Assembly: GCF_041200145.1 (NCBI RefSeq) | Contig: NZ_CP165734.1 | Coordinates: forward strand, 7,607,001 to 7,671,000 | DNA length: 64,000 nt | Direction: 5' to 3' | DNA from: Bradyrhizobium sp. LLZ17 | GTDB taxonomy: Bacteria; Pseudomonadota; Alphaproteobacteria; Rhizobiales; Xanthobacteraceae | In this document: positions 3,994 to 19,669 of the stretch, piece after piece | Layout: each line of letters opens with the position of its first letter | Numbering within the stretch: the first letter of the stretch is position 1 | Notes under the pieces: model-generated | The model's database searches: none | Seen by the model: only the letters and a program-made list of their open reading frames with translations | What the model was told of the DNA's origin: nothing | Position numbers and translations under genes: made by a program

Positions 3994-4080
3994 CACCTTG
4001 TGAGCCGTTTCCTCGAAGCGAGTGCTTTTCAGGACAATACGCATAGCATAGCTTCCATCGCAACCAGCGGGAGGATGCTG

Positions 4081-4440
4081 ATGGATTTGGCCGGACAGCT
4101 ACGACCGATTGTCGCCGCGCTGGCGGTGCTCGCCGCAATCGCGTCTGCGGCGCGAGCCGATGAAGCCAATGATTATCCGACGACGGCGCGCGCCGAATAT
4201 GTCTATGGCTGCATGAAGGCCAACGGCGAGAGCCGGCAGTCCATCGAGCAGTGTTCCTGCTCGATCGACGTGGTCGCCTCGATCGTGCCCTACGAGCGCT
4301 ACGTCACCGCGGAAACCGCGCTCAGCATGTCCCAGGTCCGCGGCAATCTCGGCGCCCAGTTTCGCACCTCGGAGCAGGCGAACGCGGCGGTGAATGATCT
4401 CAGGCGCGCGCAGGCTGAGGCAGAGGTCAGGTGTTTCTGA
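4081..4440 (+). CDS. Exported cysteine-containing protein, 119 aa, quinoprotein neighbourhood
   Basis: The start at 4081 lies six bases after GGGAGG; an in-frame ATG at 4075 overlaps that site and is less likely. A signal peptide (to about ARADE) is followed by a short alpha-helical domain with four cysteines: C in VYGCMKANG, a CSC pair in EQCSCSID, and a C two residues from the end. The spacing suggests two disulfides or a metal/cofactor site. I do not recognise a named family. Its position beside SoxYZ-like, metallohydrolase and XoxJ genes suggests a role in periplasmic quinoprotein function. Confidence 0.7.
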   Translation: MDLAGQLRPIVAALAVLAAIASAARADEANDYPTTARAEYVYGCMKANGESRQSIEQCSCSIDVVASIVPYERYVTAETALSMSQVRGNLGAQFRTSEQANAAVNDLRRAQAEAEVRCF

Positions 4441-4458
4441 TACTTGCGCTGCTGCCTT

Positions 4459-4618: not shown

Positions 4619-4631
4619 AAATACAGCGCCC

Positions 4632-5451
4632 TCACGTCGCCGGCTTATCAACATCCCACTCGTTGCGGAACACATGGCCGTCCGTGTCCTTGGCCTCGGC
4701 GCGAAAACGCCGGGCGCCGTTGGAGACGTAGGTGAAGCGCAGATTGGGATCTTCCGAGATGGAGATGCCGCCTTCCATCGACAGCACGGGACTGTCGTCC
4801 TGCGTCAGCTTCAGCTGGTTGACGAAGAAGGCGGGAATATAAAGCTGCGTGACCTGGTCCATCTGGAGCCCGGAATTGTTGGGATGGCCGATCATGATCT
4901 GCGCCTCGCGGACGCGGCTCGCCGGCGCCTCCTCGCGCGCGAATTGCCGATAACGCATCTGGCCGAGATGATTCCGGGCTTCCTCGGCATTCTTTCCCGC
5001 CGGTGCCGAGCAGCCGCCGGAGGCTTTTTACATAGATCTTGGAGACATAGAGCTGGCCGTCGCTTAGCTCCGCCACCGCATGGACATCGGTATAGTTGTT
5101 GACCCGCACCCGCGTCGAGATTTCGGTGACGTTGGCGTCCGGCCCAAGCTCGAACTTCGCCGCCATCGGTGCCGGGTTGCGGTCGATCACCAGCGTGATC
5201 GAACGGATGCGGCGGCTGTCGCCCGGCGAGAGCTTGCTGCGCAAACTCACCGGGACGATCGCCGCGTCCTCGGCGCGATAGGGCATCTCGATGCCGATCA
5301 CGCCGGCACCGTCGTTCATTGGACGGTTATTGAAAATGTCCTGCACTAGACCCGGCCAGGGATCATAGGCCTCTTCCGCGCTCGCCGGTGCGGCAAGGGC
5401 GATGCCGGCAAACGCGGCGATCAAGGTCAGGCGGAGCATATGTCGCATCAT
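4632..5451 (-). CDS. Quinoprotein dehydrogenase-associated SoxYZ-like carrier (frameshifted)
   Basis: This is a periplasmic protein with a signal peptide (MMRHMLRLTL... to PASAEE), a SoxY-like N-terminal domain and a SoxZ-like C-terminal domain (VTQLYIPAFFVNQLKLTQDD), a fusion known from PQQ-dehydrogenase neighbourhoods. In SoxY the C-terminal GGC cysteine carries the sulfur substrate. Here the matching motif is ASGGCSAPAG, encoded just after the frame break. A run of five T at 5025-5029 has one base too many; removing it gives an uninterrupted YVKASGGCSAPAGKNAEE. I therefore treat it as one gene. The start at 5451 is uncertain (5448 or 5439 also possible). It faces away from XoxJ and is followed by the metallohydrolase upstream on the same strand. 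Confidence 0.85.
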
Positions 5452-5505
5452 GGGTGTGATCCCGTGCGGGCGAAGCGGCACTTGAGCTTCAGCGTAGCGC
5501 GTCCG

Positions 5506-6432
5506 CTACTCCCATTCAATTTCCGAAAATGCTGCGGTTGCGTTGCGGGCGTTGTAGTCGTCGAAAAGGTCCCAACGGGAACGCTCGGATGAGCCCGCTT
5601 GATCCGCCGCAGCCCGGATCGATTCGCCCTTCTTGTTGAGCGCGCGCACGTCGGACAGCAGCGTCGAAAGATAACGCCGCTCATCGGCCAATGCGGCAGG
5701 CCAGTCGCTCACGGGTCCGTGACCGGGAACGACGCGCTGCGCCGGAACGGTCTCCAATTCCTTCAGCAGGGCGAGCCAGCCACGGATGCTGCCGTCCACC
5801 ACCGGAATGTGGCGGAGAAAGACGAGGTCACCCGCGAACAGCGTCTTCGTCGTCTCGTCGAACACCGTCAGGTCGTTATCGCTATGCGCCGGCGGCCACG
5901 CCCGCAAGGTCAGCCGGCGCGATCCGAGGTCGAGCGTCAGCGTCTCCGTGACCAGCAGCGTTGGCGGAACTATCTTCACGGGATCGATCAATTCGCCACC
6001 CATGATCTGCTTGAAGTTGTCCAGGTAGTAAGGCCCGCGCGTTGCCAGTGCCTGCGGCAGCTTGCTGTGGCCGATGAAGCTGGTTCTGTCGGCGATGAAG
6101 GCGGCATTGCCGAAGACATGGTCTGGATGTCCGTGGGTGTTGATGACGTAGCGGATCGGCTTGGTGGTGTGGGCCCGCACCGCCGCCAGCAACGCCTCGC
6201 CCTCGCGAACGCTGCCGCCGGTGTCGATCACGGCGACCGCCTCCTCGCCGACGATGAAACCGACATTGGCGATGTCGCCCTCGTTCTCGCGCGTCATCAG
6301 CGCGATGGTCCCGGAGTGTACGAAGATTCCCGGCGCGACTTCGCTCACAGGCAATTCGGCCGCCGCAGCGCGTGCTAACGTGGCGAGGCCCAGCAGGGCT
6401 AAGGCAGCAATCGTTGACGCGAGATGAGACAC
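5506..6432 (-). CDS. Quinoprotein relay system zinc metallohydrolase (MBL fold)
   Basis: This is an exported metallo-beta-lactamase-fold protein of 308 residues. A signal peptide (to about RAAAAE) precedes the zinc-binding signature THGHPDH at residues 99-105, followed by a second-shell AHSDNDL, the FAGDLVF motif and PGHGPVSD. These are the canonical metal ligands of the fold. The family is named from co-occurrence with PQQ-dependent dehydrogenases and SoxYZ-like carriers; its reaction is not known to me. By analogy with MBL-fold hydrolases it may cleave a thioester or similar bond on the neighbouring carrier. It lies about 55 bases upstream of the carrier gene on the same strand and is divergent from XoxJ. 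Confidence 0.85.
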
Positions 6433-6552
6433 GTTTCCGCCTCAGTTCGGGGTTTTCTGCGCTGCACACGACAAGCCACCGCAGAGTTTGGCAAAACATG
6501 GTGCGTCCTGCGTTGCATGGATAGCATTGGGATGAAACGAGGAGGAAGTGCG

Positions 6553-7434
6553 ATGACGGAGGCCGGGCGACATCGTCGCTGGTTAGTTTCACTATGTCTG
6601 ATGGTCGCGTCCTGTGCGATCGGCGACGTCGCCGCGGCGCAGACCAACGAAACTGGCGATCTCTCATTCGAACTGGTCGATCCAAAGGTGCTGCGCGTCT
6701 GCGCTGATCCGCGCAACCTGCCGTTCTCCAACGAGAAGGGTGAGGGCATCGAAAACAAGGTCGCCGAACTGTTCGCCGAAAAGCTCCAGAAGAAGCTCGA
6801 CTACGTGTTCTTTCCGCAGGCGACCGGCTTCGTGCGGATGACGCTGGGCGCGCACCGCTGCGACGTCATCATGGGCTTTCCGCAAGGCGATGATCTCGTG
6901 CAGGGGACCAATCCCTATTACCGCACGTCCTACGCGCTGGTCGCGAAGGTCGGCAGCGGGCTGGAAGATGTCGATACGCTTGAAGACGCGCGGCTCAAGG
7001 GCAAGCATCTCGGCATCATCGCGGGCACGCCGCCGGCCACCAACATGGCGATCGCCGGGTTGATGGGTGATGCGAAGCCGTATCCGCTGATGATCGACAC
7101 CCGTTATGACAATTCGGCGCAGGCGATGATCGACGACCTTTCCGCCGGGAAGATCGATGCCGGCGTGTTGTGGGGACCGATGGCGGGCTTCTACGCCAAG
7201 AAAGCCGACTCGCTTCACGTGATGCCGCTGGTGAAAGAAACCACCGGGCCAAAGCTGGTCTATCGTATCGGCATGGGCGTGCGTGCCGCCGACCAGAATT
7301 GGAAACGTCAGCTCAACAAGCTGATCCAGGAGAACCAGGGCGAGATCAACAAGATCCTGCTCGACTTCGGCGTACCGTTATTGGACGAGAGCGACCGGCC
7401 GCTCGGCGCGGAGACGGCCAAGAAGGCGCCATGA
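6553..7434 (+). CDS. xoxJ: XoxJ: quinoprotein dehydrogenase-associated periplasmic binding protein
   Basis: XoxJ/MxaJ proteins are periplasmic-binding-protein-fold accessory proteins of PQQ methanol dehydrogenases, proposed to help activate the lanthanide enzyme XoxF. The ATG at 6553 follows GGAGGAAG by four bases, ruling out longer in-frame starts. A signal peptide runs to about VAAAQ. The mature part begins with the family-typical VLRVCADPRNLPFSNEKGEG, followed by CDVIMGFPQGDDLVQGTNPYY and a GVLWGPMAG segment. At 293 residues it has the usual size. XoxF and its cytochrome, often adjacent, are not in the window. The stop overlaps the start of the CXXCW gene (ATGA), so the two are translationally coupled. 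Confidence 0.88.
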   Translation: MTEAGRHRRWLVSLCLMVASCAIGDVAAAQTNETGDLSFELVDPKVLRVCADPRNLPFSNEKGEGIENKVAELFAEKLQKKLDYVFFPQATGFVRMTLGAHRCDVIMGFPQGDDLVQGTNPYYRTSYALVAKVGSGLEDVDTLEDARLKGKHLGIIAGTPPATNMAIAGLMGDAKPYPLMIDTRYDNSAQAMIDDLSAGKIDAGVLWGPMAGFYAKKADSLHVMPLVKETTGPKLVYRIGMGVRAADQNWKRQLNKLIQENQGEINKILLDFGVPLLDESDRPLGAETAKKAP

Positions 7435-7988
7435 GACGGCCTCTTGCCGCTGCGGTCGTCGCCGTCATGCTGGCGGCGCCGGCATTAGCGCAGCAGCAGG
7501 AGCCGTTCGAGCCGGAAGGTTTTCGCACCGACAATTACCGTGCGCCGGTGCCGGCGACACTGGAAGGCGCGCGCGTGCTCACGACGGCGGAAGCCGAGGC
7601 AATCTGGCGAGCCGGGAGTGGCGCGTTCATCGACGTGCTGCCGCGCGCGCCCAAGCCGAAGAACCTTCCCGAAGGCACTGTCTGGCGCGATACCCCGCGC
7701 AAAAACATTCCGGGCAGTGTCTGGCTGCCGGACACCGGCTACGGCACGCTTCCACCGGCGATGGACGACTATTTCCAGCGCGGTCTTGCGCGGGCGTCAC
7801 GCGGCGACAAGGCCGCGCTGCTGGTGATCTATTGTCTGGCCGATTGCTGGATGTCGTGGAACGCCGCCAAGCGCGCGCTGGCGTACGGCTATGCCAACGT
7901 CGCCTGGTATCCGGACGGCACGAACGGCTGGGAGCGTGCGAAGCTTCCCACCGAGCAGGCGCAACCGGAGCCGCGCCCGGAACAGTGA
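7431..7988 (+). CDS. PQQ-dependent catabolism-associated CXXCW motif protein
   Basis: This exported protein of 185 residues has a rhodanese-like layout. The signal peptide ends near ALAQQ. A first half with AEAIWRAGSGAFIDVLPRAP resembles the rhodanese entry strand, and the active-site-like loop is CLADCWMSWNAAKRA at residues 135-149. In this copy three residues separate the two cysteines before the Trp. The family is defined by presence beside PQQ-dependent dehydrogenases and its chemistry is unknown; a persulfide or disulfide-handling role is inference from the rhodanese-like fold. It overlaps xoxJ by four bases and is probably cotranscribed with it. Confidence 0.85.
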   Translation: MRRPLAAAVVAVMLAAPALAQQQEPFEPEGFRTDNYRAPVPATLEGARVLTTAEAEAIWRAGSGAFIDVLPRAPKPKNLPEGTVWRDTPRKNIPGSVWLPDTGYGTLPPAMDDYFQRGLARASRGDKAALLVIYCLADCWMSWNAAKRALAYGYANVAWYPDGTNGWERAKLPTEQAQPEPRPEQ

Positions 7989-7999
7989 GCGAGAGACCG

Positions 8000-8082: not shown

Positions 8083-8088
8083 CCGTGT

Positions 8089-8388
8089 CTACTGCTTCTG
8101 CAATTTGGTCAGCGTCCCCGTGCCGTTGGCTTCGGTCGCGGAATAGCTCACCTTGTCGCCGGCATGGACGGTATCGAGCATCGCCGCGTCCTTGGTCTTG
8201 TACTCCTGAAGCGCGCCGGCACCGCCTGCGCTGCCGCCGACCGTGCCCTTCTGCGTCTGCTGGATCGAGATCGTGTTGTTGAGCCGATCGATCCTGGTGA
8301 CCATTCCGGTCATATCGTCAGCAAACGCGCTGGATGCGAGCATGCCGATGGCCGCAGCGCCTGCGAAGATAAATTTTGCTGTTCCCAT
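8089..8388 (-). CDS. Small exported protein, CusF/DUF1344-like fold
   Basis: The product has 99 residues, with the start chosen at 8388 behind GGGGAGA. A signal peptide (to about SAFADD) is followed by a small beta-barrel-like pattern: GMVTRIDRLNNTISIQ, then LDTVHAGDKVSYSATEANGTGTLTKLQ. This order of strands is typical of CusF-like metal chaperones and DUF1344 proteins. The copper ligands His/Met/Trp of CusF are not evident, and the middle holds a Gly/Ala-rich loop. It lies at the end of the leftward uptake operon, separated from the previous gene by about 135 bases. A role in metal binding is only a suggestion. Confidence 0.6.
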   Translation of the reverse strand: MGTAKFIFAGAAAIGMLASSAFADDMTGMVTRIDRLNNTISIQQTQKGTVGGSAGGAGALQEYKTKDAAMLDTVHAGDKVSYSATEANGTGTLTKLQKQ

Positions 8389-8523
8389 CGAGGTCTCCCC
8401 GGGTTGGAGCTTCACTTCGACAAGCCATCCTAGATCGATTTGGTTCCGGCAGATAGCGCGGCAAAGAGCTTAAGGATTCTTATTGCGAGGACGGGAACCC
8501 GGGAGCCGTCAGCAACGCTGACG

Positions 8524-9138
8524 CTATTCCAGTTCCTGCTGGATCACGCGTCCGAGCGCAAACAGGCGCTGGTCGATCGCGGTGGGAACCTCGCAGACGA
8601 ATCGCACGACCTTGCGGCGATCCTCGAAGATGCGGGTTTCCCAGATCAACTGGTTGCTGAACGCCTCGACCTTGGCCTCGTCGCGTGGTGTTGCGTCCTG
8701 CAGCGCCTGAAGCTGGACTGTATCGTCGCGGATCTTGTCCGCGGCCTCACGCTGCTTGCGGCTGACCCGTTCGAGCCCCCGCATGACCTGGGAGCGCTGG
8801 GCGTTGAGCGTGTCGAACAGGCCGGCGAACAAGAGCTTTGCGTTCCCGGTCTTGTCGGACCCGGAACCGGCCAGAAATTCCTTCACCGACTTCTCGGCGT
8901 CATCCAGCGGCGTTTTTCGCGCCGACAGCTTTGAGATCAGCGCGCTGACTTTCGCGTCGTCCTTCCACCGGGTTTCGGCGTCGTCGAGCGCCGGGCCGGC
9001 CCAGACGGCCGCGAGCGAGATCTCCGGCACCTTAGCCTGCGTGCAGGGCCAGTCCGGATAGCGCGGATCGGCCGCGCGCGCGGCCGTGCCCGACACCACG
9101 ACCGCAAGGGCAGTAATGGCAAGAGCCCGAACCTTCAT
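8524..9138 (-). CDS. Exported hypothetical protein of PQQ/lut-like operon, 204 aa
   Basis: A signal peptide (to about TAARAADP) is followed by DPRYPDWPCTQAKVPEISLAAVWAGP and then a helical, charged domain including FAGLFDTLNAQRSQVMRGLERVSRKQRE. The start codon overlaps the ABC permease stop (ATGA), so it is the next gene of the same operon. In methylotroph lanthanide-uptake clusters an exported protein of unknown function follows the ABC permease, and this gene has the same position (lutG-like). That comparison rests on order and general features, not on an alignment. Function unknown. Confidence 0.7.
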   Translation of the reverse strand: MKVRALAITALAVVVSGTAARAADPRYPDWPCTQAKVPEISLAAVWAGPALDDAETRWKDDAKVSALISKLSARKTPLDDAEKSVKEFLAGSGSDKTGNAKLLFAGLFDTLNAQRSQVMRGLERVSRKQREAADKIRDDTVQLQALQDATPRDEAKVEAFSNQLIWETRIFEDRRKVVRFVCEVPTAIDQRLFALGRVIQQELE

Positions 9139-9983
9139 CCTTCGCCTCCGGCAGGCCCGCGCCGTGCTAGCCCGCGCGACGGATCATAGGCGAAAATCGC
9201 GCCGGTCATGAACACGATTGTGCAGGTCGCGACCACCGCGAGCGAGATCCAGTTGACCTGCCCGTAGAGCGCAAACCGGATCATCTCGACCGCATGGGTG
9301 AACGGATTTGCCTCGCAAACATAATAGAGATAGGGGCTGCCCTCCTGCACCCGCCACAGCGGGTAGAGCGCGGAGGATGCGAAGAACATCGGAAAGATCA
9401 CGAAGTTCATCACGCCGGCAAAACTCTCGAGCTGCTTGATGCCGGAGGAGATCAGCATGCCGAGCGAGCCCAGCATCAGCCCTGACAGGATCAGCGCCGG
9501 CAGCACCGTGAGATAGCCAATCGGCGGAGGGGTGATGTCCCAGAACCAGGCGATCAGGAGGAATGCATAGACCTGAAGCAGCGAGACTGCGGTGCCCGCG
9601 AGCAGCTTGCAGAACAGGAGAAACCCGCGCGGTAGCGGGCTCACCAGCAGCGTGCGCATGTTGCCCATCTCGCGGTCATAGACCATCGAGAGCGAGGATT
9701 GCATGCCGTTGAAGAGCTGTATCATCGCGATCAGCCCGGGCGCGATAAAGACCTCGTAGAGAATATAGGTCTCGTAGGGCGGGATAATGGAGATGCCGAG
9801 CACCTGCCGGAAGCCCGCTGCAAAGATGAACAGCCACACCAGCGGGCGCACCAGCGCGGAGACGAAGCGCTCGCGCTGATGCAGGAAGCGCAGGCCCTCG
9901 CGCCAGACGATGCCCATGAGACAGGTCATGTACTCGGCAAACGAGAATCCGCGCGGTGTGTCACGGGCGGTGATGCTGCTCAT
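9135..9983 (-). CDS. ABC-2 type permease of PQQ-associated / lut-like transporter
   Basis: This inner-membrane permease of 282 residues belongs to the ABC-2 family. It has six hydrophobic segments and the conserved stretch MQSSLSMVYDREMGNMRTLL seen in that family. Relatives are annotated as the permease of PQQ-dependent alcohol-dehydrogenase-associated transporters (PedC-type), and the equivalent gene in methylotrophs is part of the lanthanide-uptake cluster (lutF-like). The start overlaps the ATPase stop by four bases and the stop overlaps the next gene by four. Despite the exporter-type fold, the operon includes a periplasmic binding protein, which fits import. Confidence 0.85.
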   Translation of the reverse strand: MSSITARDTPRGFSFAEYMTCLMGIVWREGLRFLHQRERFVSALVRPLVWLFIFAAGFRQVLGISIIPPYETYILYEVFIAPGLIAMIQLFNGMQSSLSMVYDREMGNMRTLLVSPLPRGFLLFCKLLAGTAVSLLQVYAFLLIAWFWDITPPPIGYLTVLPALILSGLMLGSLGMLISSGIKQLESFAGVMNFVIFPMFFASSALYPLWRVQEGSPYLYYVCEANPFTHAVEMIRFALYGQVNWISLAVVATCTIVFMTGAIFAYDPSRGLARRGPAGGEG

Positions 9984-10789
9984 GCGCCGCCTCCCGGCAT
10001 GATCTGCGCGCCCGTCAGCCGCATGAAGGCGGTGTTGACGTCCTGCGCACCGGCTTCCGCAATGACGCGGCCGACCGGGCCCTTGGCCAGCACCTTGCCC
10101 TGGTGCAGCACCACGAGGTCGTCGCCCGCATTGATCTCGTCGAACAGATGCGTGGCCCAGAGCACCCCGATGCCTTGTTCGGTGACGAGCTGGCGCACAT
10201 GGCTGATGATGTCGGCGCGCGCCTTGACATCGAGGCCGACGGTCGGCTCGTCCAGCAGCAGCAGTCGCGGCCGGTGCAACAGCGCGCGCGCGATCTCCAG
10301 CCGCCGCATCTGCCCGCCGGAGAGATCGCGCACCTTGCTTGCAGCGCGCTCGCCAAGGCCGATGCGGCCGAGCAACTCGGCAGCGCGCGTGGCGGCCTCG
10401 CGGCGGCTGATGCCGTGGAGGGCGGCGTGATAGAGCAGGTTCTGCGTCAGCGACAGATCGAGATCGAGCGTGCGCGGCTGGAACACGACGCCGAGCAGCC
10501 GCAGCGCTTCGCCGGGGCTATTGCTGATGTCGTGGCCGAAAATACCGACGCGGCCGGTCTGGATGCCGAACAGGCGCGTGATCAGCGAGAACAGCGTGCT
10601 CTTGCCGGCGCCATTGAGGCCGAGCAGCGCGGTGAAGCTCGCGGGCTGGACGTTGAAGGAGACGTCGATCAGCGCCCGGCGCGGTCCGTAGGCGTGGCTG
10701 ACGCCGTCGATCGACAGCGCCGGCACCGCGGCCGGATCCGGCCTCAGTGTGGTCTCGCGTGGCTCGGCGATGGGGGCGGGGCTGGTCAT
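9980..10789 (-). CDS. ABC transporter ATPase, PQQ-dependent alcohol dehydrogenase system
   Basis: This is a nucleotide-binding subunit of 269 residues with all motifs intact: Walker A GLNGAGKST, Q-loop VVFQPRTLDLDLS, signature LSGGQMRRLEIARAL, Walker B LLLLDEPTVGLD and the switch His in WATHLFDE. It pairs with the ABC-2 permease, whose gene it overlaps by four bases, and its own start overlaps the beta-propeller stop by four. The family is known from gene neighbourhoods of PQQ-dependent dehydrogenases and matches the ATPase (lutE-like) of lanthanide-uptake operons. The assignment to metal uptake is by synteny. Confidence 0.88.
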   Translation of the reverse strand: MTSPAPIAEPRETTLRPDPAAVPALSIDGVSHAYGPRRALIDVSFNVQPASFTALLGLNGAGKSTLFSLITRLFGIQTGRVGIFGHDISNSPGEALRLLGVVFQPRTLDLDLSLTQNLLYHAALHGISRREAATRAAELLGRIGLGERAASKVRDLSGGQMRRLEIARALLHRPRLLLLDEPTVGLDVKARADIISHVRQLVTEQGIGVLWATHLFDEINAGDDLVVLHQGKVLAKGPVGRVIAEAGAQDVNTAFMRLTGAQIMPGGGA

Positions 10790-11745
10790 GGCGCGATCGT
10801 GATGCCCCAGGGCAGCTCGCCCACCTGAATGGTCTTGATCACCTTCTGCGCGGCCACGTCGATCACCGAGACATCGTTGGAGACGCCGTTGGTCACCAGC
10901 AGGTATTTTTCATCCGGCGTGAACGCCATGTGCCAGACCCGCTGGCCGACCAGCAGATATTTCGTCACCTTGCGCGTGGCAGTATCAACCACCGCGACGC
11001 GGTTGGCGGGGCCGAGCGCGACGAAGGCGGTCTTGTCGTCCTTGGTCATGCCGATGCCGACCGGCTGGATCGCCTCGCGCCGCAGGCCCGGGATGTCGAA
11101 CGTCACCTTGCCGATCACCTCGTGCTTTTTGGGATCGATGATCGACACCGTACCGCCGATCTCGGACGACACCCAGAGTTCTGAAGCGTCGTGCTTGAAC
11201 TCGGCGAAGCGCGGGCGCGCATCGACCAGCACATTGGCGACGATCTGGCGCGAATTGGTATCGATGAAATGCGCCATGTTGGTCGTTTCCGACGTGTTGA
11301 TCAGAATCTTGCCGTCGGGACTGACGGTCATGCCTTCGGGCTCGACGCCGACCTGGATGTCGCCGAGGCGGGCGCGCTTGTCCAGGTCGATCACCGTCAC
11401 CGTGTTGTCGTTCTCGTTGGCGACATAGAGCGTCTTGCCGGTTGCATCCTGCGTGAACAGCTCGGGGTCGGGTCCGGAGGGCAGGGTGTCGACGACCGCT
11501 TGCGACTTGGCGTCGATCATCTGGATGGTGTCGTCATCGCCGACCGCGACCATCACGAACTTGCCGTCGCGCGTGAATTCGATGCCGCGCGGACGCTGGC
11601 CGACCTTGATCGTCTTGGTCACCGTCCAGCTCTCGGTGTCGATCACCGACACCGAGTTGCTCTTCTCGTTCGAGACATAGGCGATGAACGCATGGGCAGG
11701 CGTTGCCGAGAGCGCCAGTGCCACGGGCAAAGCTGCCCCGAGCAT
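10786..11745 (-). CDS. PQQ-dependent catabolism-associated beta-propeller protein (YVTN repeats)
   Basis: This exported protein of 319 residues has a short signal peptide (MLGAALPVALALS... to TPAHA) and seven repeats of the YVTN type, for example AYVSNEKSNSVSVIDTES, LYVANENDNTVTVIDLDK and LLVTNGVSNDVSVIDVAA, forming a seven-bladed propeller. The frame is open further upstream to an ATG at 11937, but that extension is encoded by the repeat at 11775-11911 and is Pro-rich low-complexity, so I prefer 11745. No good ribosome-binding site precedes 11745; a TTG two codons earlier is an alternative. Such propellers accompany PQQ dehydrogenases and the lut cluster. The role may be scaffold or metal/cofactor binding. 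Confidence 0.85.
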   Translation of the reverse strand: MLGAALPVALALSATPAHAFIAYVSNEKSNSVSVIDTESWTVTKTIKVGQRPRGIEFTRDGKFVMVAVGDDDTIQMIDAKSQAVVDTLPSGPDPELFTQDATGKTLYVANENDNTVTVIDLDKRARLGDIQVGVEPEGMTVSPDGKILINTSETTNMAHFIDTNSRQIVANVLVDARPRFAEFKHDASELWVSSEIGGTVSIIDPKKHEVIGKVTFDIPGLRREAIQPVGIGMTKDDKTAFVALGPANRVAVVDTATRKVTKYLLVGQRVWHMAFTPDEKYLLVTNGVSNDVSVIDVAAQKVIKTIQVGELPWGITIAP

Positions 11746-11774
11746 GCGCAAGGCTTGTCCGCGGGGCGCCTTCA

Positions 11775-11911
11775 CCTCCCCCGCTTGCGGGGGAGGTCGT
11801 ATCGCATCGTTAGATGCGATACGGGAGAGGGCTCTTTCACCTTGGGGACTCTCGCTCGTGGACACACCCTCTCCCCAACCCTCCCTCGCAAGCGGGGGAG
11901 GGGGCGTAGCG
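11775..11911. repeat. Intergenic repeat with three hairpins inside the uptake operon
   Basis: The perfect hairpin CCTCCCCCGC-TT-GCGGGGGAGG lies at 11775-11796 and is followed by a second one at 11798-11823 (CGTATCGCATC-GTTA-GATGCGATACG). The far end (CCTCCCTCGCAAGCGGGGGAGG) repeats the first hairpin imperfectly. The element sits between the binding-protein gene and the propeller gene, directly upstream of the propeller start. It could process or attenuate the transcript between the two genes. Confidence 0.7.
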
Positions 11912-11962
11912 TCGTTGTGGTCGCAGCTCGAACTCATCTCACATAGCCCACTTCAGCTTGGC

Positions 11963-13144
11963 TCACTTCAGCTTGCATTTGCTCTCCGGACGGTCATAGC
12001 CGAGCGTGTCGAGCTCGGAGACCTGGTGCAAGAATCCCTCTTGCGGCGACACCGACACCACCATGCGGCCATCGACCAGCAGGATCGGTTGGCGGAGCTG
12101 GAGGTTCCAGTCGCGCAGCGTCAGCTTTGTGCCCTTGAAGGCGGCCACGGAGAAGTCCGGTCCCTTGATGAAATCGGTGACTTTCTTGACGTCCCCGGAA
12201 TTGGTGCGCGAGGTGCCTTCGCCGACCATGCGAACCGCGGTCCAGGCCTGCATGTCGAGCGCGGTCATCCGCCGTGAGTTCAGCTTCATGAAGCGGTTCT
12301 GCATCTGGGTTGCGCCCCATTGGTCCTGGGCCGCGTCCCAGCTGCGCGGCACCAGACCGGCCGAGCCCGCGACGGGGCGCGGATCCCAGGTCCGGTAGGG
12401 CAGGTACGCGCCGAACACCTCACTCTCGTCGGCGGCGACCATTACGTCGTAAGCGGGGGCCTGCTGGGTGAACACCGGCATCTGCCGCTGGATCAGCGTC
12501 ACGCCGCTATCGGTGCGCCGCGCGCCGCCGGTGTCCTCGAAGGTGCGCTCCTGCACGATCTTGGCGCCAAATCGGGTTGCGGTACGCCGGAGCGCGTCGG
12601 CAAACAGCTTGTCCGCGTCATGCGAGCCGACCACGAGCAGCCAGCGCTTCCACTGCTTCCACACCAGATACTGGCCGAGCGCGTCGGCCAGCATCGACCG
12701 CGTCGGTGCGGTGTGGATGACATTGGCGCGGCAATCGACCTCGCGCAGCCGCTCGTCGATCGCGCCGGCGTTGAACAGCAGCGTGCCGCGATCGCGCAGG
12801 GCGTCGGCGACCTTCAGCAGCGTGTCGGCGGGCAAGTCGGCAATGATGAAGCCGTTATGCGCGGCGAGATCGGTCGCGGCCTGGACCGCATCCTCGCCCT
12901 CCTTGACCCGGCGCTCTTCCAGCGCAAAACGCTGGTTGAGAAATTTACCGGTGGTGTTGTTGTCCTCGATCGCGAGGCGTGCGCCGGCGACGCCGTCATT
13001 CTCGGCGGGCTGCTCGACCAGCGACAGCGTCGACCTGGTGCCGGCGACACCGAGATAGCCGACGCCGATCTGCACCGGGTCCGCCGCGAGCACTTGGGTC
13101 GCCGCCAGACTCAGGCCGATCAGGCCGGGCAACCATCGGATCAT
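11963..13144 (-). CDS. ABC transporter periplasmic binding protein, PQQ-associated (lutA-like)
   Basis: This periplasmic binding protein of 393 residues has the type I (branched-chain amino-acid) fold. The signal peptide ends near TQVLAAD. The mature start VQIGVGYLGVAG, the AGARLAIEDNNTTGKFLNQ helix, and YDVMVAADESEVFGAYLPYRTW are family hallmarks. It contains an acidic-rich hinge (LVEQPAENDGVAGARLAIED) but I cannot point to metal ligands. It is the first gene of the leftward operon with the propeller, ATPase, permease and exported protein. The equivalent in Methylobacterium is the lanthanide-uptake binding protein LutA; the ligand here is inferred from that order. Confidence 0.83.
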   Translation of the reverse strand: MIRWLPGLIGLSLAATQVLAADPVQIGVGYLGVAGTRSTLSLVEQPAENDGVAGARLAIEDNNTTGKFLNQRFALEERRVKEGEDAVQAATDLAAHNGFIIADLPADTLLKVADALRDRGTLLFNAGAIDERLREVDCRANVIHTAPTRSMLADALGQYLVWKQWKRWLLVVGSHDADKLFADALRRTATRFGAKIVQERTFEDTGGARRTDSGVTLIQRQMPVFTQQAPAYDVMVAADESEVFGAYLPYRTWDPRPVAGSAGLVPRSWDAAQDQWGATQMQNRFMKLNSRRMTALDMQAWTAVRMVGEGTSRTNSGDVKKVTDFIKGPDFSVAAFKGTKLTLRDWNLQLRQPILLVDGRMVVSVSPQEGFLHQVSELDTLGYDRPESKCKLK

Positions 13145-13271
13145 GCTTCCTCCGTACGTCTCCCCGGCTTGACCGCCGATGGAGAATTGTCTCCACTAAA
13201 GCATGACCGATTTGTCAGGGCATGCAACCCCGCATTTCGTCCTCGCGTGTGCGCGGACTGGAATCACGATC

Positions 13272-13775
13272 ATGCGAGCGCTGCTTTGCTTCGCCGCTTT
13301 GCTGTTGACGCCATCGGCAGCGTTGGCCGATCCGCCGAAACTCGCGGTATTCGATTTCGAGCTGATCGACACCAGCCTGCCCGGCGAGTTCTACGGCTCA
13401 AAACCGGAGGAGGCGCGGCTCGCGCAGATCAGCGAGCAGCTGCGCAAGGAACTGGCGGACTCAGGCAGGTTCCAGCTGCTCGATATCACGCCGGTCCGAG
13501 ACGCCGCGAGTCACAGCAATTTGCAGGTTTGCGGCGGCTGCGACCTCAAGCTCGCGAAGCAATTGGGCGCCGATCTCGAGATCACCGGAATGGTACAGAA
13601 GGTCTCGAACCTGATCATCAACCTCAACGTCTATCTTCGCGACGTGAAGACCGGCAGCATGATCACGGCTGCCAGCGCCGATATGCGCGGCAACACCGAC
13701 GAATCCTGGTCCCGCACCATGAGCTATCTGATCCGCAACCGACTGCTGGCGCCGAATTACGGGCGGCCGGAGTAG
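13272..13775 (+). CDS. Exported DUF2380/DUF3280-type protein, 167 aa
   Basis: I chose the ATG at 13272 because it gives a signal peptide (MRALLCFAAL... to ALADP) right before the conserved KLAVFDFELIDTSLPGEFYG. The body resembles TolB/FlgO-like N-terminal domains, with an ISEQLRKELADSGRFQLLDI segment and a CGGC pair (VCGGCDLKLAKQLGADLEITG). Proteins of this type recur in PQQ-dependent alcohol oxidation clusters, but I know of no assigned function. The CGGC pair could be redox-active or metal-binding, which is inference. It is divergent from the binding-protein gene, sharing a region of about 130 bases with it. Confidence 0.75.
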   Translation: MRALLCFAALLLTPSAALADPPKLAVFDFELIDTSLPGEFYGSKPEEARLAQISEQLRKELADSGRFQLLDITPVRDAASHSNLQVCGGCDLKLAKQLGADLEITGMVQKVSNLIINLNVYLRDVKTGSMITAASADMRGNTDESWSRTMSYLIRNRLLAPNYGRPE

Positions 13776-13967: not shown

Positions 13968-14813
13968 TCACGTCTTCAATCTCTCCGCATGCCAGTGCAG
14001 ATGATCACTCATGAACGTCGAGATGAAGTAATAGCTGTGGTCATATCCCGCCTGCCGCCGCAGCGTCAGCGGGATGTTGGCCTTGCTGCAGGCGGCTTGC
14101 AGCAATTCGGGCCGAAGCTGCTCGTTCAAAAAATTATCGGCATCGCCGACGTCGACGAGAAAGCCCGAGAATCTCGCGCCGTCCTCGATCAGCGCCACCG
14201 TGTCATGGCTGCGCCAGGCCTCCTTGTTGGGCCCGAGATAGCCGGTCAGCGCCTTGACGCCCCACGGCACCTGTGAGGGCGCCACGATCGGCGCGAAGGC
14301 GCTGGCTGCGCGATAGCGGTGAGGGTTGCGTAGCGCCACCGTCAGCGCGCCGTGGCCGCCCATCGAATGGCCCAGCACCGATTGGCGTTTGGGATCGACC
14401 GGAAAATTCTCCGCTACCAGCTTCGGCAGCTCGTCGGTGACGTAGCTCCACATCCGATAGTTGCGCGCGAACGGCGCTTCGGTGGCGTCGACATAGAAGC
14501 CGGCCCCCAAGCCGAAATCATAGGAATTGTTGGGATCGCCGGGCACGTCGGGCCCGCGCGGGCTGGTGTCGGGCGCGATGAAGATCAAGCCAAGCTCGGC
14601 GCAGGCGCGGCGAAATTCGCCCTTCTCGGTCACGTTGGCATGGGTGCAGGTCAGCCCGGAGAGATACCAGACCACGGGCAGCTTGGCGCCCTCCGCATGT
14701 GGCGGAACATAGACCGAGAACACCATGTCGGTTCCGGTCGCCTGGCTGGCATGGCGATAGACGCCCTGCACGCCGCCATAGGATGTGTTGGTCGAGACAG
14801 TCTGCATGGTCAT
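13968..14813 (-). CDS. fghA: S-formylglutathione hydrolase
   Basis: This cytoplasmic serine hydrolase splits S-formylglutathione into formate and glutathione, the last step of glutathione-dependent formaldehyde oxidation, and so handles the product of methanol oxidation. It has 281 residues, the normal length. The nucleophile is Ser150 in GHSMGGHGAL. The family-specific LSGLTCTHANVTEKG lies near residues 51-65, and the triad is completed by Asp226 (DADNF) and His259 (GYDHSYYF). It lies 88 bases downstream of the response-regulator gene on the same strand. The glutathione-dependent formaldehyde dehydrogenase gene is not in the window. Confidence 0.93.
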   Translation of the reverse strand: MTMQTVSTNTSYGGVQGVYRHASQATGTDMVFSVYVPPHAEGAKLPVVWYLSGLTCTHANVTEKGEFRRACAELGLIFIAPDTSPRGPDVPGDPNNSYDFGLGAGFYVDATEAPFARNYRMWSYVTDELPKLVAENFPVDPKRQSVLGHSMGGHGALTVALRNPHRYRAASAFAPIVAPSQVPWGVKALTGYLGPNKEAWRSHDTVALIEDGARFSGFLVDVGDADNFLNEQLRPELLQAACSKANIPLTLRRQAGYDHSYYFISTFMSDHLHWHAERLKT

Positions 14814-14901
14814 GCCGTTTTGCTCCGTGGCATCTCACCACATCTCTGTTGCAACGCCTATGTGACCGAATTCGTGCCGGTGCGCCACGTGCGGCGCAAG
14901 A

Positions 14902-15522
14902 TCAGGCCATGCCGCTGTCGATCGCCAGCCGCACCAGTTCGACCGAGGTCTTGACTCCGAGCTTCTGGCGCATGATCGAGGAGGTGTTGGCCACCGTCTT
15001 GTAGGAGGATTGCACCAGCCAGGCGATCTCGGACAGGCTCTTTCCGGCGCTGAGCAGCCGCAAGATCTCCATCTCGCGCGCGTTCAGCTTCGACAACGGG
15101 TTCTGCGCCAGCGCTGGTCCCGCGAAGGCGATGCGGCGTGCGATCGCGCTCGGCAGATAGGTGCCGCCGCCGCCCACGGTGCGGATCGCTTCGACGAGGT
15201 CATCGGGGTCGCCGGTCTTGGAAACATAACCTTTGGCGCCGCACTCGATCGCGCGGGCGGCGAAAGCGGGGTCGTCGTTCATGCTGAACATGATGATACG
15301 GGCATCAGCCGCGCGCTCGAGGATGCGGCGGGTGAGTTCGAAGCCGGAAACGGTGGGCAGGTTGATGTCGATGATGCAGAGGTCGGGGCGCTCGACGATG
15401 AAGACGCATTCGCCGCTTTCGGCGTCGGCGGCCTCCAGAATCTCGATATCGCCGTCGTCCGCCAGCACGGCTCGGCAGCCGGAGGCGACGATTGGATGAT
15501 CGTCGACGATCAGAATGCGCAT
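14902..15522 (-). CDS. NarL/FixJ-type response regulator, near methanol-oxidation genes
   Basis: This two-component regulator of 206 residues has a receiver domain (residues 1-120; phosphoacceptor Asp52 in CIIDINLPTVSG; acidic pair DD near residues 7-8; Lys in GYVSKTG) and a LuxR-type helix-turn-helix (LNAREMEILRLLSAGKSLSEIA ends the first half; KTVANTSSIMRQKLGV is the recognition part). The start at 15522 begins directly with the receiver strand MRILIVDDHP. The gene is divergent from the histidine kinase at 15715. Similar pairs (MoxXY, FlhRS of Paracoccus) control methanol and formaldehyde oxidation, so fghA and the uptake genes are likely targets; this is inference. Confidence 0.85.
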   Translation of the reverse strand: MRILIVDDHPIVASGCRAVLADDGDIEILEAADAESGECVFIVERPDLCIIDINLPTVSGFELTRRILERAADARIIMFSMNDDPAFAARAIECGAKGYVSKTGDPDDLVEAIRTVGGGGTYLPSAIARRIAFAGPALAQNPLSKLNAREMEILRLLSAGKSLSEIAWLVQSSYKTVANTSSIMRQKLGVKTSVELVRLAIDSGMA

Positions 15523-15714
15523 GGGCGTTCCCCGCGTCAGCGCCTCGGCTTGTTGTGAGCCGCATGAGCCGAACAAGACAACGGCGTGTCTCATGTCAGC
15601 TCATGCAACCCGGCCAGGATTGCTGTACGCTTTCGATTAGATATCGGGCGCTTCGGGTCTGTCAACGCTATCGGACGGGCACGAGCAGAGCTTGGCGGGG
15701 TACGGACGATACCA

Positions 15715-17073
15715 ATGTGGCAAAATCTATCCTTGCGCGGGCGCATCAATCTGCTGCTGGCGCTGCTGCTGGCGCTGGGGCTCGCCGTCAACATCGCCAG
15801 GCAGGTGGCGGAGGCGGCGCCGCGCGTGCAGGCCGAGGACCAGAGCGTGATCCGGCTCGCGCGCGAATTCATTGAGATGATCGTGGCGGATCTCAACGAC
15901 GCCCCCGATCCGGATGCCAAGCTGAACCAGATCGCGCGTGACCTCAACCGTCTCCGCCACGTCAGTATCGCGCTTCATGATTCCGGCGGGATTCCGCTGA
16001 CGCCGCTGCGAACCGCGGCCGATGACGATGCGCCCGGGCCGCCGGCCTGGTTCGTCAGTCTGGTTCATCCCGAGCAGACCGCGGTCAGCGTGCCGGTCTC
16101 GGTTCATGGCAAACCGGGCTCGCTGGTGATCACCTCGCATCCCACTGACGAGATCGCCGAGATCTGGGACGCCATCGTCACGCAGCTCGAGGTCGGCTCA
16201 GTCATCGCGCTCGCGCTGTTCCTGGTGATGATGAGGGTGGTGGGCCGGGCGCTCACCCCGCTGCAGTCCCTGGCGCAAACCATGGCCGAGCTTGAAAGCG
16301 GTCGCTACGACGCGCGCGTGGCGCCGGGCGGTGCACCCGAGCTGGCCGCGATCTGCACCAAGCTCAATCATCTGGCGGCGACACTGGGGGAGGCGGTCGA
16401 GGACAAGCGCCGGCTCGCCGAGCGCGCGGTCTCGCTTCAGGACCTCGAGCGCAAGGAGATCGCGCGCGAGCTGCATGACGAGTTCGGGCCGTATCTGTTC
16501 TCGCTGCGCGCACATGCGAGCGCGCTGGCGAAGCTTGCGGACGGGCGCGCCCCGAACGCCGATGCCGTGCGAAGACACGGCAGCGCCCTGCTGGAGCAGA
16601 TCAACGCGCTTCAGCAATTCACCCGCCGCGTGCTGGAGCGCTTGAGGCCGGTCGGCCTCGCCGAGCTCGGCCTGAGTCAGGCGCTCGAATCGCTGTCGCG
16701 GCTGTGGCGGGAGTCGCATCCCGACGTCGCGATCGAAACCACGATCTCGCCCGCGCTCGGGCCGGTCGGCGAGACCGCCGATCTCACCATCTACCGCGTT
16801 GTGCAGGAGGCGCTCACCAACGCGTTTCGTCATGCCGGTGCGACCTCGATCAATGTCGTGATCGAGCCGGCGGAGTCGCCGGGCAGCGATGGCCGCGGCT
16901 GCGCCCGGGTGCGCGTCAGCGACAACGGCCACGGCATGGAGCCGGGCCAGAAGCTGGGCTTCGGCCTCGTCGGCATGCGCGAGCGCATTCTGGCGTTGGG
17001 CGGCACGCTCCACGTGGCCTCGGGCGATGGCGGCGTCACCGTGGAGGCGTTGGTTCCGACGGCGGCGGCCTGA
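15715..17073 (+). CDS. Membrane sensor histidine kinase (HisKA_3 type)
   Basis: This protein of 452 residues probably pairs with the divergent response regulator. A first transmembrane helix (INLLLALLLALGLAVNIA) is followed by a periplasmic sensor region of about 130 residues and a second helix (SVIALALFLVMMRVVG). A HAMP-like linker (LTPLQSLAQTMAELESGRYD), the phosphoacceptor helix ERKEIARELHDEFG and a GHKL ATPase domain (QEALTNAFRHAG; DNGHGM; GFGLVGMRERI) follow. I chose the ATG at 15715 because it starts just before the first helix; longer in-frame starts add unlikely sequence. Its signal is unknown; regulation of C1 or quinoprotein genes is inferred from position. Confidence 0.85.
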   Translation: MWQNLSLRGRINLLLALLLALGLAVNIARQVAEAAPRVQAEDQSVIRLAREFIEMIVADLNDAPDPDAKLNQIARDLNRLRHVSIALHDSGGIPLTPLRTAADDDAPGPPAWFVSLVHPEQTAVSVPVSVHGKPGSLVITSHPTDEIAEIWDAIVTQLEVGSVIALALFLVMMRVVGRALTPLQSLAQTMAELESGRYDARVAPGGAPELAAICTKLNHLAATLGEAVEDKRRLAERAVSLQDLERKEIARELHDEFGPYLFSLRAHASALAKLADGRAPNADAVRRHGSALLEQINALQQFTRRVLERLRPVGLAELGLSQALESLSRLWRESHPDVAIETTISPALGPVGETADLTIYRVVQEALTNAFRHAGATSINVVIEPAESPGSDGRGCARVRVSDNGHGMEPGQKLGFGLVGMRERILALGGTLHVASGDGGVTVEALVPTAAA

Positions 17074-17221
17074 TCGCGAGGAACGCCATCGGGAAAAATT
17101 CCCGATTTCGTCGGGAAAACCGGCGGCAAGAGTGCCCGATCTTTTGTGGCTGGCGCACGCATGACGGCAGACTACACTTCTCGACGCAATCGGCGACGTT
17201 CAGAACAGCCGGCGCTTGGGA

Positions 17222-19669
17222 ATGGGACGGCAGGGGATGGGCGTGCGAAAGCTTTTGATGGCCTCGATGTCGACGGGGCTGATGCTTTGGACTGACGCCG
17301 CCACGGCGGCGCAGGACGAGGACACCAACGTCCAGAACCTCCCCGCGGTCGAGGTGGTGGCGCCGCAGCCGACCGCGCGTCGCAGCGCGCCGCGCGCGCC
17401 GACGCGCGTCGTAAGTTCCGGCAAACCCAACACCCGCATCTACGTCTACCCGACGGCGCCGGGCAATGCGAAGGGCCTTGATGTCGACAAGGTTCCCTCC
17501 AGCATCAACGCGGTCGATGCCAGCCAGATCAAGCGCGCCGGCTCGATGAACGTCACCGACGCGCTGCGTGACAATGTCGCGAGCGTCAACATCACCGAGG
17601 TGAGCGGCAATCCGTTTCAGCCGAATGTCGAGTTTCGCGGCTTCGTGGCCTCGCCGATCGTCGGCACGCCGCAAGGGCTTGCCGTCTACCAGAACGGCGT
17701 GCGCATCAACGAAGCATTCGCCGATAGCGTCAATTGGGACCTGATCCCGACCGCCGCGATCCGCTCGGTCACGGTGGTGACCAACAATCCCGCCTTCGGC
17801 CTCAACGCGCTCGGCGGCGCGGTCAACCTGCAAATGAAGGACGGATTTACCTATCAAGGCGCCGAGATCGATACGATGGGCGGCTCGTTCGGCCGCATCC
17901 AGAGCTCGGCGCAATGGGGCAAGCATGTCGACACCAATTACGCCGTCTACGCCGCGCTGGAGGGCTTGCACGACAATGGCTTCCGCAACTCCGCGCAATC
18001 GGACGTGCGACGTTTTTACGGCGATGTCGGTTACAAGGGCGGGGACAGCGAATTCCACGTCAACATGGGGCTCGCCAACAACAACTTTGGTGCTTCCGCC
18101 ACCGTCCCCGCCGAGTTGTTGCAGCAATATTGGGGCGCAATTTACACCAACCCGCAGACCACCAACAATCGCGTCGGCTATGTCAACCTGACCGGCAAGG
18201 TCGAGGCGACGCCGACCTGGACCTTCGAAAGCACGGCCCATGCGCGCGTGTTCGAGCAGCGCGTTGTCGACGGCAATCCCACCAGCGTGCAGGAATGCGC
18301 TGCGCCCGGCCTGCTTTGCTTCGGCGACGACACCACGGCCGCCAATGGCCTCAACGGGGCGCAGCTCGTAAACCCCTTCGCGTCCGGCACGCTGCTCGGC
18401 GAGATCGATCGCACGACGACGCGATCGACAACGTTCGGTGTCTCCTCGCAGGCGACCAATACCGACAAGCTGTTCGAGCACGAGAATCGCTTCGTGGTCG
18501 GCGCGAGCTTTGACGCCAGCGTCACGCGTTTCAACGCCACGGCCGAGCTCGGAACCATCGGCACGGACTATCTCGTCAGCGGCCGCGGGATTTTTCTGGG
18601 ACCATCCGGCACACCGGCGACCGGCGAGATGGGCCCGGTGTCGCTGCGTACCGTCAATCAATATTCCGGCCTCTATGCGCTCGACACCTTCAGCATGACC
18701 GACGCCTTTGCGATCACCGGGGGTGGTCGCTTCAATCACGCCCACGTCACGCTGGAAGACCAGCTTGGCACCGCGCTCAACGGCGATCACAGCTACGACC
18801 GCTTCAATCCGATCGTCGGCGGCACGTACAAGATCACGCCCGAGCTCACCGCCTATGCCGGTTACTCCGAGGCCAACCGCGTCCCGACGCCGCTCGAGCT
18901 CGGTTGCGCCGATCCGAACAACCCGTGCCTGATCGCATCCTTCCTGGTCTCCGATCCGCCGCTCAAGCAGGTGGTGTCCAAGACGGTCGAGGCGGGCCTG
19001 CGCGGGACGAGGGAGTTGAACATCGGCACGCTCGGCTGGAAGATCGGCGGCTTCCGGGCGACCAATTATGACGACATCATGGGCCTGCCGGTGGCGGGAC
19101 GGCAGGGTTTCGGCTTCTTCCAGAACGTCGGCGCGACGCGCCGGCAGGGCATCGAGGCCGAGGTCAACCTCAAATCGGAGACGCTCCAGTTCCACGCCAG
19201 CTATGCTTTGGTGGACGCGCGCTTCCTCGATGCGCTCGAGCTCTCGTCCAACAGTCCCTTTGCCGCCGGCGGCACCATCCACGTCGTTCCCGGCAACCAG
19301 ATTCCGGCCGTGCCACGCCACCGCGTCAAGGCCGGGATCGAATATGCCGTGACCGACGCCTGGAAAATCGGCGGCGATGCGTTGTTCGTGTCGAGCCAAT
19401 ATCTGGTCGGAGACGAGTCCAATCAGGCCTCGAAGCTGCCTTCCTACACCGTGTTCAACCTGCACACCTCCTACCAGCTCAGCAAGAACGTCCAGCTCTA
19501 CGGCAAGATCGACAACATCTTCGACAATCGCTACGCGACCTACGGCACCTTCTTCGACACCACCGCGGTGCCCAACTTCGGCAACGGCGGCAATCCCTTC
19601 ACCGACCCACGCTCGCTGAGCCCGGCAAGGCCGCGCGCATTCTACGCGGGCGCGCGCGTGACGTTCTAG
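17222..19669 (+). CDS. TonB-dependent outer-membrane receptor (lutH-like position)
   Basis: This receptor of about 815 residues has a signal peptide (MGVRKLLMAS... to ATAAQ), a possible TonB box near VEVVAP, a plug domain (VDASQIKRAGSMNVTDALRD; GLAVYQNGVRINEAFADSVN; NPAFGLNALGGAVNLQMKDG) and a 22-strand-type barrel ending in a terminal Phe (YAGARVTF). The start is ambiguous between 17222 and 17237. Lanthanide-uptake clusters of methylotrophs end in such a receptor (lutH), thought to bring in a lanthanide-chelator complex. Here it lies in the same neighbourhood but on the other strand and beyond the two-component genes, so the substrate remains inferred. Confidence 0.85.
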   Translation: MGRQGMGVRKLLMASMSTGLMLWTDAATAAQDEDTNVQNLPAVEVVAPQPTARRSAPRAPTRVVSSGKPNTRIYVYPTAPGNAKGLDVDKVPSSINAVDASQIKRAGSMNVTDALRDNVASVNITEVSGNPFQPNVEFRGFVASPIVGTPQGLAVYQNGVRINEAFADSVNWDLIPTAAIRSVTVVTNNPAFGLNALGGAVNLQMKDGFTYQGAEIDTMGGSFGRIQSSAQWGKHVDTNYAVYAALEGLHDNGFRNSAQSDVRRFYGDVGYKGGDSEFHVNMGLANNNFGASATVPAELLQQYWGAIYTNPQTTNNRVGYVNLTGKVEATPTWTFESTAHARVFEQRVVDGNPTSVQECAAPGLLCFGDDTTAANGLNGAQLVNPFASGTLLGEIDRTTTRSTTFGVSSQATNTDKLFEHENRFVVGASFDASVTRFNATAELGTIGTDYLVSGRGIFLGPSGTPATGEMGPVSLRTVNQYSGLYALDTFSMTDAFAITGGGRFNHAHVTLEDQLGTALNGDHSYDRFNPIVGGTYKITPELTAYAGYSEANRVPTPLELGCADPNNPCLIASFLVSDPPLKQVVSKTVEAGLRGTRELNIGTLGWKIGGFRATNYDDIMGLPVAGRQGFGFFQNVGATRRQGIEAEVNLKSETLQFHASYALVDARFLDALELSSNSPFAAGGTIHVVPGNQIPAVPRHRVKAGIEYAVTDAWKIGGDALFVSSQYLVGDESNQASKLPSYTVFNLHTSYQLSKNVQLYGKIDNIFDNRYATYGTFFDTTAVPNFGNGGNPFTDPRSLSPARPRAFYAGARVTF

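Follow-up and report, generated by a model that had tools for sequence, protein, structure and literature searches.

A lut-type gene set beside XoxF5, lanmodulin and PqqT-type importer genes in Bradyrhizobium sp. LLZ17: a predicted route for lanthanide and PQQ uptake

Among the described systems, the lut cluster of Methylorubrum extorquens AM1, which consists of lutA to lutI and lanM (PMC7391723; this and the other papers are cited here from extracts of their text), is among the closest to the gene set considered in this work. PedA1A2BC of Pseudomonas putida comprises the same four kinds of gene, those for a binding protein, a propeller, an ATPase and a permease, and is needed for growth with low La in a species which has no LutH homologue (PMC6839425); in the present locus a receptor is linked. 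Homologues of lutA, B, E, F and G with a divergent lutH have also been reported from Bradyrhizobium strains 110 and 3456 (PMC12628762). The locus lies in the left part of a 64,000-nucleotide stretch of Bradyrhizobium sp. LLZ17, hereafter the window, which spans positions 7607001-7671000 of the one contig that makes up the 7.80 Mb genome (assembly GCF_041200145.1, contig NZ_CP165734.1). In this Bradyrhizobium-like bacterium the window very probably covers the right portion of a xox-lan-lut-pqqT island, whose products would import both lanthanide and pyrroloquinoline quinone (PQQ) for the methanol dehydrogenase XoxF5. As lut homologues with a divergent lutH are already published for Bradyrhizobium, the island is a well-supported further case, differing in that the extracts of PMC12628762 contain no mention of a PqqT importer, a lanmodulin or a two-component system.

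The core of the set is formed by five reverse-strand genes that run leftward from position 13144, close to each other or overlapping, and encode the periplasmic binding protein LutA (11963..13144), a YVTN beta-propeller (10786..11937), the ATPase LutE (9980..10789), the ABC-2 type (ATP-binding cassette) permease LutF (9135..9983) and the exported protein LutG (8524..9138). An earlier note on this DNA had read these genes as lut-like; all genes it named are present in the list of open reading frames at the positions and on the strands it gave, and the comparison with Methylobacterium-type lut genes that it proposed identifies the ABC and binding genes as homologues of lutA, B, E, F and G. LutA scores 498 bits against TIGR03863 (cut-off 414) and is 48% identical to the protein of Methylorubrum thiocyanatum, and the propeller scores 517 bits against TIGR03866 (cut-off 287), with 61% identity to the gene after lutA in that species. 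The corresponding figures are 345 bits against TIGR03864 (cut-off 302) and 58% for LutE, and 400 bits against TIGR03861 (cut-off 241) and 65% for LutF. The LutG gene, which has no match in Pfam or NCBIfam, is 36% identical over 211 residues to M. thiocyanatum LutG. As a single sequence LutA finds no solved relative at an expectation value (E) of 0.01, and a 31-sequence profile of it yields weak matches of the leucine-binding-protein type among solved structures.

The reference cluster of M. thiocyanatum was obtained by searching named genomes for the likeness of M. extorquens XoxF1 (best 80 loci), and its order of lutA, propeller, a 154-residue protein, an 87-residue protein, ATPase, permease, LutG, TonB receptor and lanmodulin fits that given for AM1 from lutA to lutH and lanM (PMC7391723). 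Because of this gene order the window propeller is taken to be LutB and not LutD, a detail to be amended in the earlier naming of lut parts. LutD is a published lanthanide binder. With the AM1 and M. thiocyanatum cluster the present locus shares homologues of lutA, B, E, F, G and H, lanmodulin and, beside lutA, a divergent DUF3280 gene (13203..13775, forward strand; PF11684, 192 bits), which adjoins lutA in Ancylobacter as well. It differs from M. thiocyanatum in that lutC and lutD find no counterpart (see below) and lutH is encoded on the opposite strand, beyond fghA and the genes of a two-component pair. Moreover, the xoxF, xoxJ and pqqT genes and an orf6 homologue here form one compact island, whereas xoxF of M. 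thiocyanatum starts about 34 kb from lutA.

Conservation of the arrangement was surveyed in 149 genomes of the same family, with thresholds of 360 bits for lutA, E 1e-100 for the receptor and E 1e-180 for xoxF5; scores in the genome searches were computed for the top candidates of an initial pass (for instance 14 of up to 67), and the Fisher p-values from this survey ignore the relatedness of the genomes. The 57 strong lutA matches fall into 54 genomes. Neighbourhoods were taken from 40 genomes other than the present one, one match each, chosen by eye on contig extent and score and in several cases cut by contig ends, with 13 other genomes left out. In these neighbourhoods LutG is found in 33/40, the DUF3280 gene in 27/40, xoxF5 in 27/40 and xoxG in 26/40. 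The raw scores of 32/40 for both xoxF5 and XoxJ include 5 and 4 cross-matches, respectively, to other dehydrogenase or binding-protein genes, leaving 27 and 28 on the map, and for ADH2 and ADH3, likewise at a raw 32/40 each, the map retains 8 and 1. Gene identity, orthology and linkage across genomes are in this sense observed.

The NCBIfam names of these families, which refer to a "PQQ-dependent alcohol dehydrogenase system", suggest that the ABC set could serve alcohol oxidation directly, as a transporter of the alcohol or its product, and in four genomes (G040, G072, G114 and G129) a second layout consisting of pqqT genes, two-component pair, receptor, lutFE, propeller and lutA is paired with an ADH2-type alcohol dehydrogenase and has no xoxF5 within the 40 kb around the set. 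Such a role appears very unlikely, however, as mutation of pedA1A2BC in P. putida leaves growth on the oxidised intermediates possible and a strain with the Ca enzyme unaffected, but raises the La requirement of the La enzyme about 100-fold (PMC6839425). In AM1 the lutE and lutF mutants likewise fail to grow on methanol with La, and those in lutA, lutB and lutG grow slowly (PMC7391723). The homology to lutA, B, E, F and G instead supports the suggestion of the earlier note that the alcohol-related names may describe a lanthanide importer.

XoxF is absent from the window, as the earlier note had seen, and is present outside it, 5.5 kb from the left edge and well inside the 20 kb where the note had proposed to look; a genome with no XoxF, which it had regarded as telling against a lut set, is not what was found. 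The XoxF5 gene (-7397 to -5547, negative positions lying left of the window) has M. extorquens XoxF1 (6oc5, 947 bits) as its best solved match and carries DYD where 6oc5 has DFD, with an Asp two residues after the catalytic Asp; the meaning of this Asp-x-Asp motif, like the clade name XoxF5 for the gene at -7397, is presumed here. Among the best 80 named loci, picked by likeness to M. extorquens XoxF1, it is 86-88% identical to six Bradyrhizobium records, the next being at 77%. The family survey finds xoxF5 in 42 of the 149 genomes, all 42 of which carry lutA. Beside XoxF5 lie a xoxG-like cytochrome gene (-8228 to -7659), 59% identical to the one that follows M. thiocyanatum xoxF, and a glutathione-formaldehyde-dehydrogenase-like gene, named by eye; in Bradyrhizobium 3456 xoxF, xoxG and frmA have neighbouring gene numbers (PMC12628762). 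Beyond what the earlier note had described, a lanmodulin gene within -1035 to -463 ends 463 bp outside the left edge. Its product is 54% identical over 108 residues to M. thiocyanatum LanM, has a signal peptide by eye and contains four EF loops, three with Pro2 (Ser in loop 1) and loop 3 with Thr at position 9; Pro2 is missing from two loops of Methylobacterium aquaticum LanM as well (PMC9260416).

A second ABC importer, also outside the earlier note, occupies 1579-4044 on the reverse strand and, judged from its sequence, is a PqqT-type PQQ system. Its genes encode a predicted PQQ-binding protein of the PqqT family (3019..4044; Pfam NMT1, TauA-like), a permease (2280..3017; PF00528, 85 bits; 53% identical to the gene upstream of M. 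thiocyanatum xoxF) and an ATPase (1579..2290) in two overlapping frames, 1579-1956 and 1925-2290, each of the three being found in 21/40 neighbourhoods. The ATPase was named by eye and by homology, the frame 1925-2290 being 48% identical to the neighbour of M. thiocyanatum pqqT. From Pfam and NCBIfam the genes had looked like a taurine/nitrate-type importer, an assignment that was dropped when the PDB search matched PqqT. The nearest solved structures of the binding protein are 9b1u/9b1v, which are PqqT of M. extorquens, and 9ooz, with E 1.5e-67 to 9b1u for the sequence alone and 1.9e-117 with a 26-sequence profile. Adjoining permease and ATPase genes and the linkage to xoxF and lut genes are common to both systems, and PQQ binding is predicted for the present one. 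The M. thiocyanatum homologue, about 40% identical over nearly the full length, is a reciprocal best match and lies upstream of xoxF with the permease and ATPase genes between. In the family pqqT is present in 41 of the 149 genomes, namely in 40 of the 54 with lutA and one of the 95 without, and in 37 of the 41 it is no more than 20 kb from lutA, the receptor or xoxF5. No statement of this linkage was found in the open-licence literature searched, where a search for taurine/NitT-type transporters with xoxF likewise returned nothing useful.

The TonB-dependent receptor (17216..19669, forward strand; Pfam Plug and barrel) appears to be of the LutH type, with 40-43% identity to the lut-linked receptor of M. 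thiocyanatum, and it occurs in 25/40 neighbourhoods. The earlier note had regarded it as the weakest link of the set, a view which the comparison does not sustain. With the M. thiocyanatum receptor as query the window gene is matched at E 2.8e-168 and the next gene in the genome at 8e-4, making it the sole close LutH relative there, and in the opposite direction a single gene of M. thiocyanatum is matched at E 1e-20, which is the reciprocal best and lies inside the lut cluster. The receptor also tracks lutA: the 149 genomes include 54 with lutA, 43 with the receptor, 41 with both, two with the receptor and no lutA and 93 with neither, which corresponds to 41/54 genomes with lutA versus 2/95 without. 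Where both are present, the two genes are at most 20 kb apart in 25 of the 41 genomes and on different contigs in 11. An AM1 mxaF lutH strain at first did not grow on methanol with La (PMC7391723).

The pqqT genes in the same island raise the question of whether the receptor could instead be a PqqU-like PQQ receptor that feeds the PqqT importer, the more so as the nearest solved structures of its family are YncD/PqqU (6v81 and 9c4o, E 3e-28) and it is the best match of the PqqU profile in the genome, at 83 bits. Against the cut-off of 1200 of that profile, NF041535, scores of 83-89 bits are nevertheless far below what is required. The aromatic Y99 of PqqU (PMC12124388), taken as chain position 99 of 6v81 on the assumption that the paper numbers residues in the same way, aligns to Val in the window receptor and to no aromatic residue in 17 sequences by eye; R304 and R365 of PqqU fall outside the aligned stretches. 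In addition, among genomes with lutA the receptor is present in 11/14 that lack pqqT and in 30/40 that have it, with no difference in frequency (Fisher p = 1), and its reciprocal best relation is to a lut-linked receptor. A PqqU-like function is therefore considered very unlikely, and LutH remains the preferred assignment.

A bolder idea would have PQQ itself act as the lanthanophore, with the receptor importing lanthanide-PQQ, PqqT taking the PQQ and LutA the metal, and the island loading both XoxF cofactors. Crystals of PqqT with PQQ and Gd(III) have been described (PMC12828617), the receptor family has a PQQ transporter as its nearest solved relative and pqqT accompanies lutA in 40 of the 54 lutA genomes, but the missing PqqU aromatic and the independence of the receptor from pqqT once lutA is given both speak against it, and we regard the idea as a long shot. 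As to other chelators, the extracts of PMC12628762 report no clear methylolanthanin genes in nodule-forming relatives, and an IucA/IucC synthetase (PF04183, aerobactin/methylolanthanin type), whose absence would suit the PQQ idea, was not found in this genome in a search that covers the aerobactin-type class only and was positive in 2 of 14 controls.

Beside the LutH-type receptor lie a LuxR-type response regulator (14902..15594, reverse strand; PF00072 and PF00196) and a histidine kinase (15586..17073, forward strand; PF07730, PF02518 and PF00672), each in 23/40 neighbourhoods. The receptor is present in all 23 neighbourhoods with regulator and kinase, and in 22 of the 25 receptor neighbourhoods the kinase is no more than two genes away. 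In Rhodoblastus acidophilus a kinase with 39% identity directly precedes the receptor, and in M. aquaticum 22A a LutH-like receptor beside mxcQE is needed for XoxF-dependent growth (PMC9260416), the likeness to this TonB_Ln-mxcQE locus being one of arrangement. Given this recurrent linkage, the two-component pair belongs to the arrangement and is thus no ground for doubting the receptor, as which the earlier note had taken it. The periplasmic domain of the kinase weakly matches PF16448 LapD_MoxY_N (23.9 bits, just below the cut-off of 25), and MxaY is known to control the lanthanide switch in Methylomicrobium buryatense (PMC5018670); the pair in the window probably controls either uptake or which dehydrogenase is used. 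Next to the regulator lies fghA for S-formylglutathione hydrolase (13968..14813, reverse strand; TIGR02821, 410 bits, cut-off 282; 18/40 neighbourhoods). A TRAP-TAXI-like gene at 19725-21263, found in 0/40 neighbourhoods, was ruled out as an island member.

The part of the island between the two importers contains several accessory genes. The first of them (4075..4440, forward strand) shares 57% identity over 90 residues with a 133-residue M. thiocyanatum gene at the orf6 position and recurs in 27/40 neighbourhoods, or 28/41 when this genome is included. In M. thiocyanatum that gene is preceded on its strand by pqqE and a 238-residue gene, and in AM1 orf6 (META1p1746), orf7 and pqqE have neighbouring gene numbers (PMC7391723). 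It is because of this position of its homologue that the gene at 4075 is equated with orf6, the AM1 mutant of which grows at 0.03 versus 0.16 per hour on methanol with La (PMC7391723); orf7 finds no match within the 118 kb around the set that were searched. A SoxYZ-like carrier of quinoprotein systems follows in two frames (4632..5481, reverse strand; 28/40 neighbourhoods), with 122 bits against TIGR04557 on the broken frame 4648-5481 (cut-off 140) and 90 bits against SoxZ on 4632-4958. Next to it are a quinoprotein relay system zinc metallohydrolase 2 (5506..6432, reverse strand; TIGR04559, 407 bits, cut-off 280; 28/40), XoxJ (6424..7434, forward strand; TIGR03871, 296 bits, cut-off 212; 28/40 at 30% identity or more), whose best solved match is XoxJ 6onp at E 2.5e-64, and a PQQ-associated CXXCW protein (7431..7988, forward strand; TIGR03865, 248 bits, cut-off 128, scanned as 7170-7988; 27/40). 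Between the CXXCW gene and lutG a small CusF-like protein (PF11604) is encoded at 8089-8415, with counterparts in 3/40 neighbourhoods. A small protein (1178..1582, reverse strand; 18/40), exported by eye, adjoins the pqqT-type genes, and its R. acidophilus homologue is a neighbour of the histidine kinase and receptor genes. At 124-723, between lanmodulin and the pqqT genes, part of an outer-membrane-barrel-like protein is recognisable by eye (17/40).

Four PQQ alcohol dehydrogenases above the family cut-off are encoded in the genome, two of them within 7.5 kb left of the window. Besides XoxF5, a PedH-like quinoprotein is found there (-2855 to -1191), which is closest to P. putida PedH, has 6zcv as its best solved match and shows a DYD motif by eye. 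The PedH-like gene is followed by its own cytochrome and binding protein, the group (-4145 to -1191, or L009:14855-17809) lying between xoxF5 and lanmodulin, as does an AraC/FeaR-like regulator below the FeaR cut-off (L009:13558-14712). A TIGR04494 search for a PedF cytochrome gave only a weak match, to the cytochrome beside the PedH-like gene. Further matches of the PQQ-dehydrogenase family are located at 7519286-7530011, 7591459-7592988 and 2735290-2736819 of the genome.

Several observations weigh against an island that imports lanthanide and PQQ for XoxF5. In the 118 kb searched here, tblastn at E 1e-3 matches neither lutC nor lutD; across 41 lutA neighbourhoods (E 1e-5) lutC is matched in five and lutD in none, and LutC and LutD are therefore not constant parts of the lut cluster. 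Most known members of the ABC-2 family, to which LutF belongs, export their substrates. No receptor match is found at E 1e-100 in 13 of the 54 lutA genomes (G072 has the receptor in two pieces) or at E 1e-20 in 5 of 14 named lutA genomes, those of Ancylobacter rudongensis, Labrys okinawensis, Paracoccus limosus, P. kondratievae and Sinorhizobium saheli, so the receptor is not universal. About 60% of the AM1 mxaF lutH cultures later acclimated and grew (PMC7391723), and in Bradyrhizobium 3456 the predicted lanthanide uptake genes showed no rise on methanol versus succinate, with La in both (PMC12628762). Lanmodulin lies near lutA in only 4/40 relatives.

The remaining objection is that three genes of the island, the C-terminus of xoxF5, the pqqT-linked ATPase and soxYZ, look frameshifted. 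One extra base is apparent near 1950 in the ATPase against two relatives and near 5028 in the SoxYZ-like gene against three, and the split frames at 1579-2290, at 4632-5481 and at the end of xoxF5 coincide with non-triplet differences near 1950, 5028 and -7362 from 2-3 of 6 relatives. If these frameshifts were real, XoxF5 may be inactive here, and the island could be a decayed or misassembled one in which the set no longer works. Similar splits are apparent by eye in unrelated window genes (26992-30046, 40443-42834 and 52919-55646), which fits a poorly polished assembly, and assembly error is therefore thought more likely than decay; the lut genes and the receptor, moreover, are open frames with conserved proteins. 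A non-functional island is accordingly judged unlikely, although less so than the alternatives discussed above, and the interpretation of the gene set as one for lanthanide uptake is supported.

For substrates, transport direction, accessory roles and regulation we infer the following scheme. The LutH-type receptor would use TonB energy to take lanthanide, probably in chelated form, through the outer membrane, and LutA, with LutB and LutG as periplasmic accessories, would pass it to the LutE/LutF transporter and into the cytoplasm, as proposed for AM1. The second importer, with its PqqT-type binding protein, would recapture PQQ. XoxF5 and the PedH-like enzyme, both periplasmic quinoproteins, may be served by XoxJ and lanmodulin together with the Orf6-like and CXXCW proteins, the SoxYZ-like carrier and the zinc hydrolase, and formaldehyde would be removed by the glutathione-formaldehyde-dehydrogenase-like enzyme together with FghA.

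Behind the "PQQ-dependent-alcohol" gene names in this Bradyrhizobium-like genome there is thus very likely a set for lanthanide uptake, with the genes for XoxF and lanmodulin beside it, and co-occurrence in 149 genomes ties a PqqT-type PQQ importer closely to the lut and xox genes. Together they provide a concrete gene set for how both cofactors of XoxF may be acquired in nodule-forming relatives.

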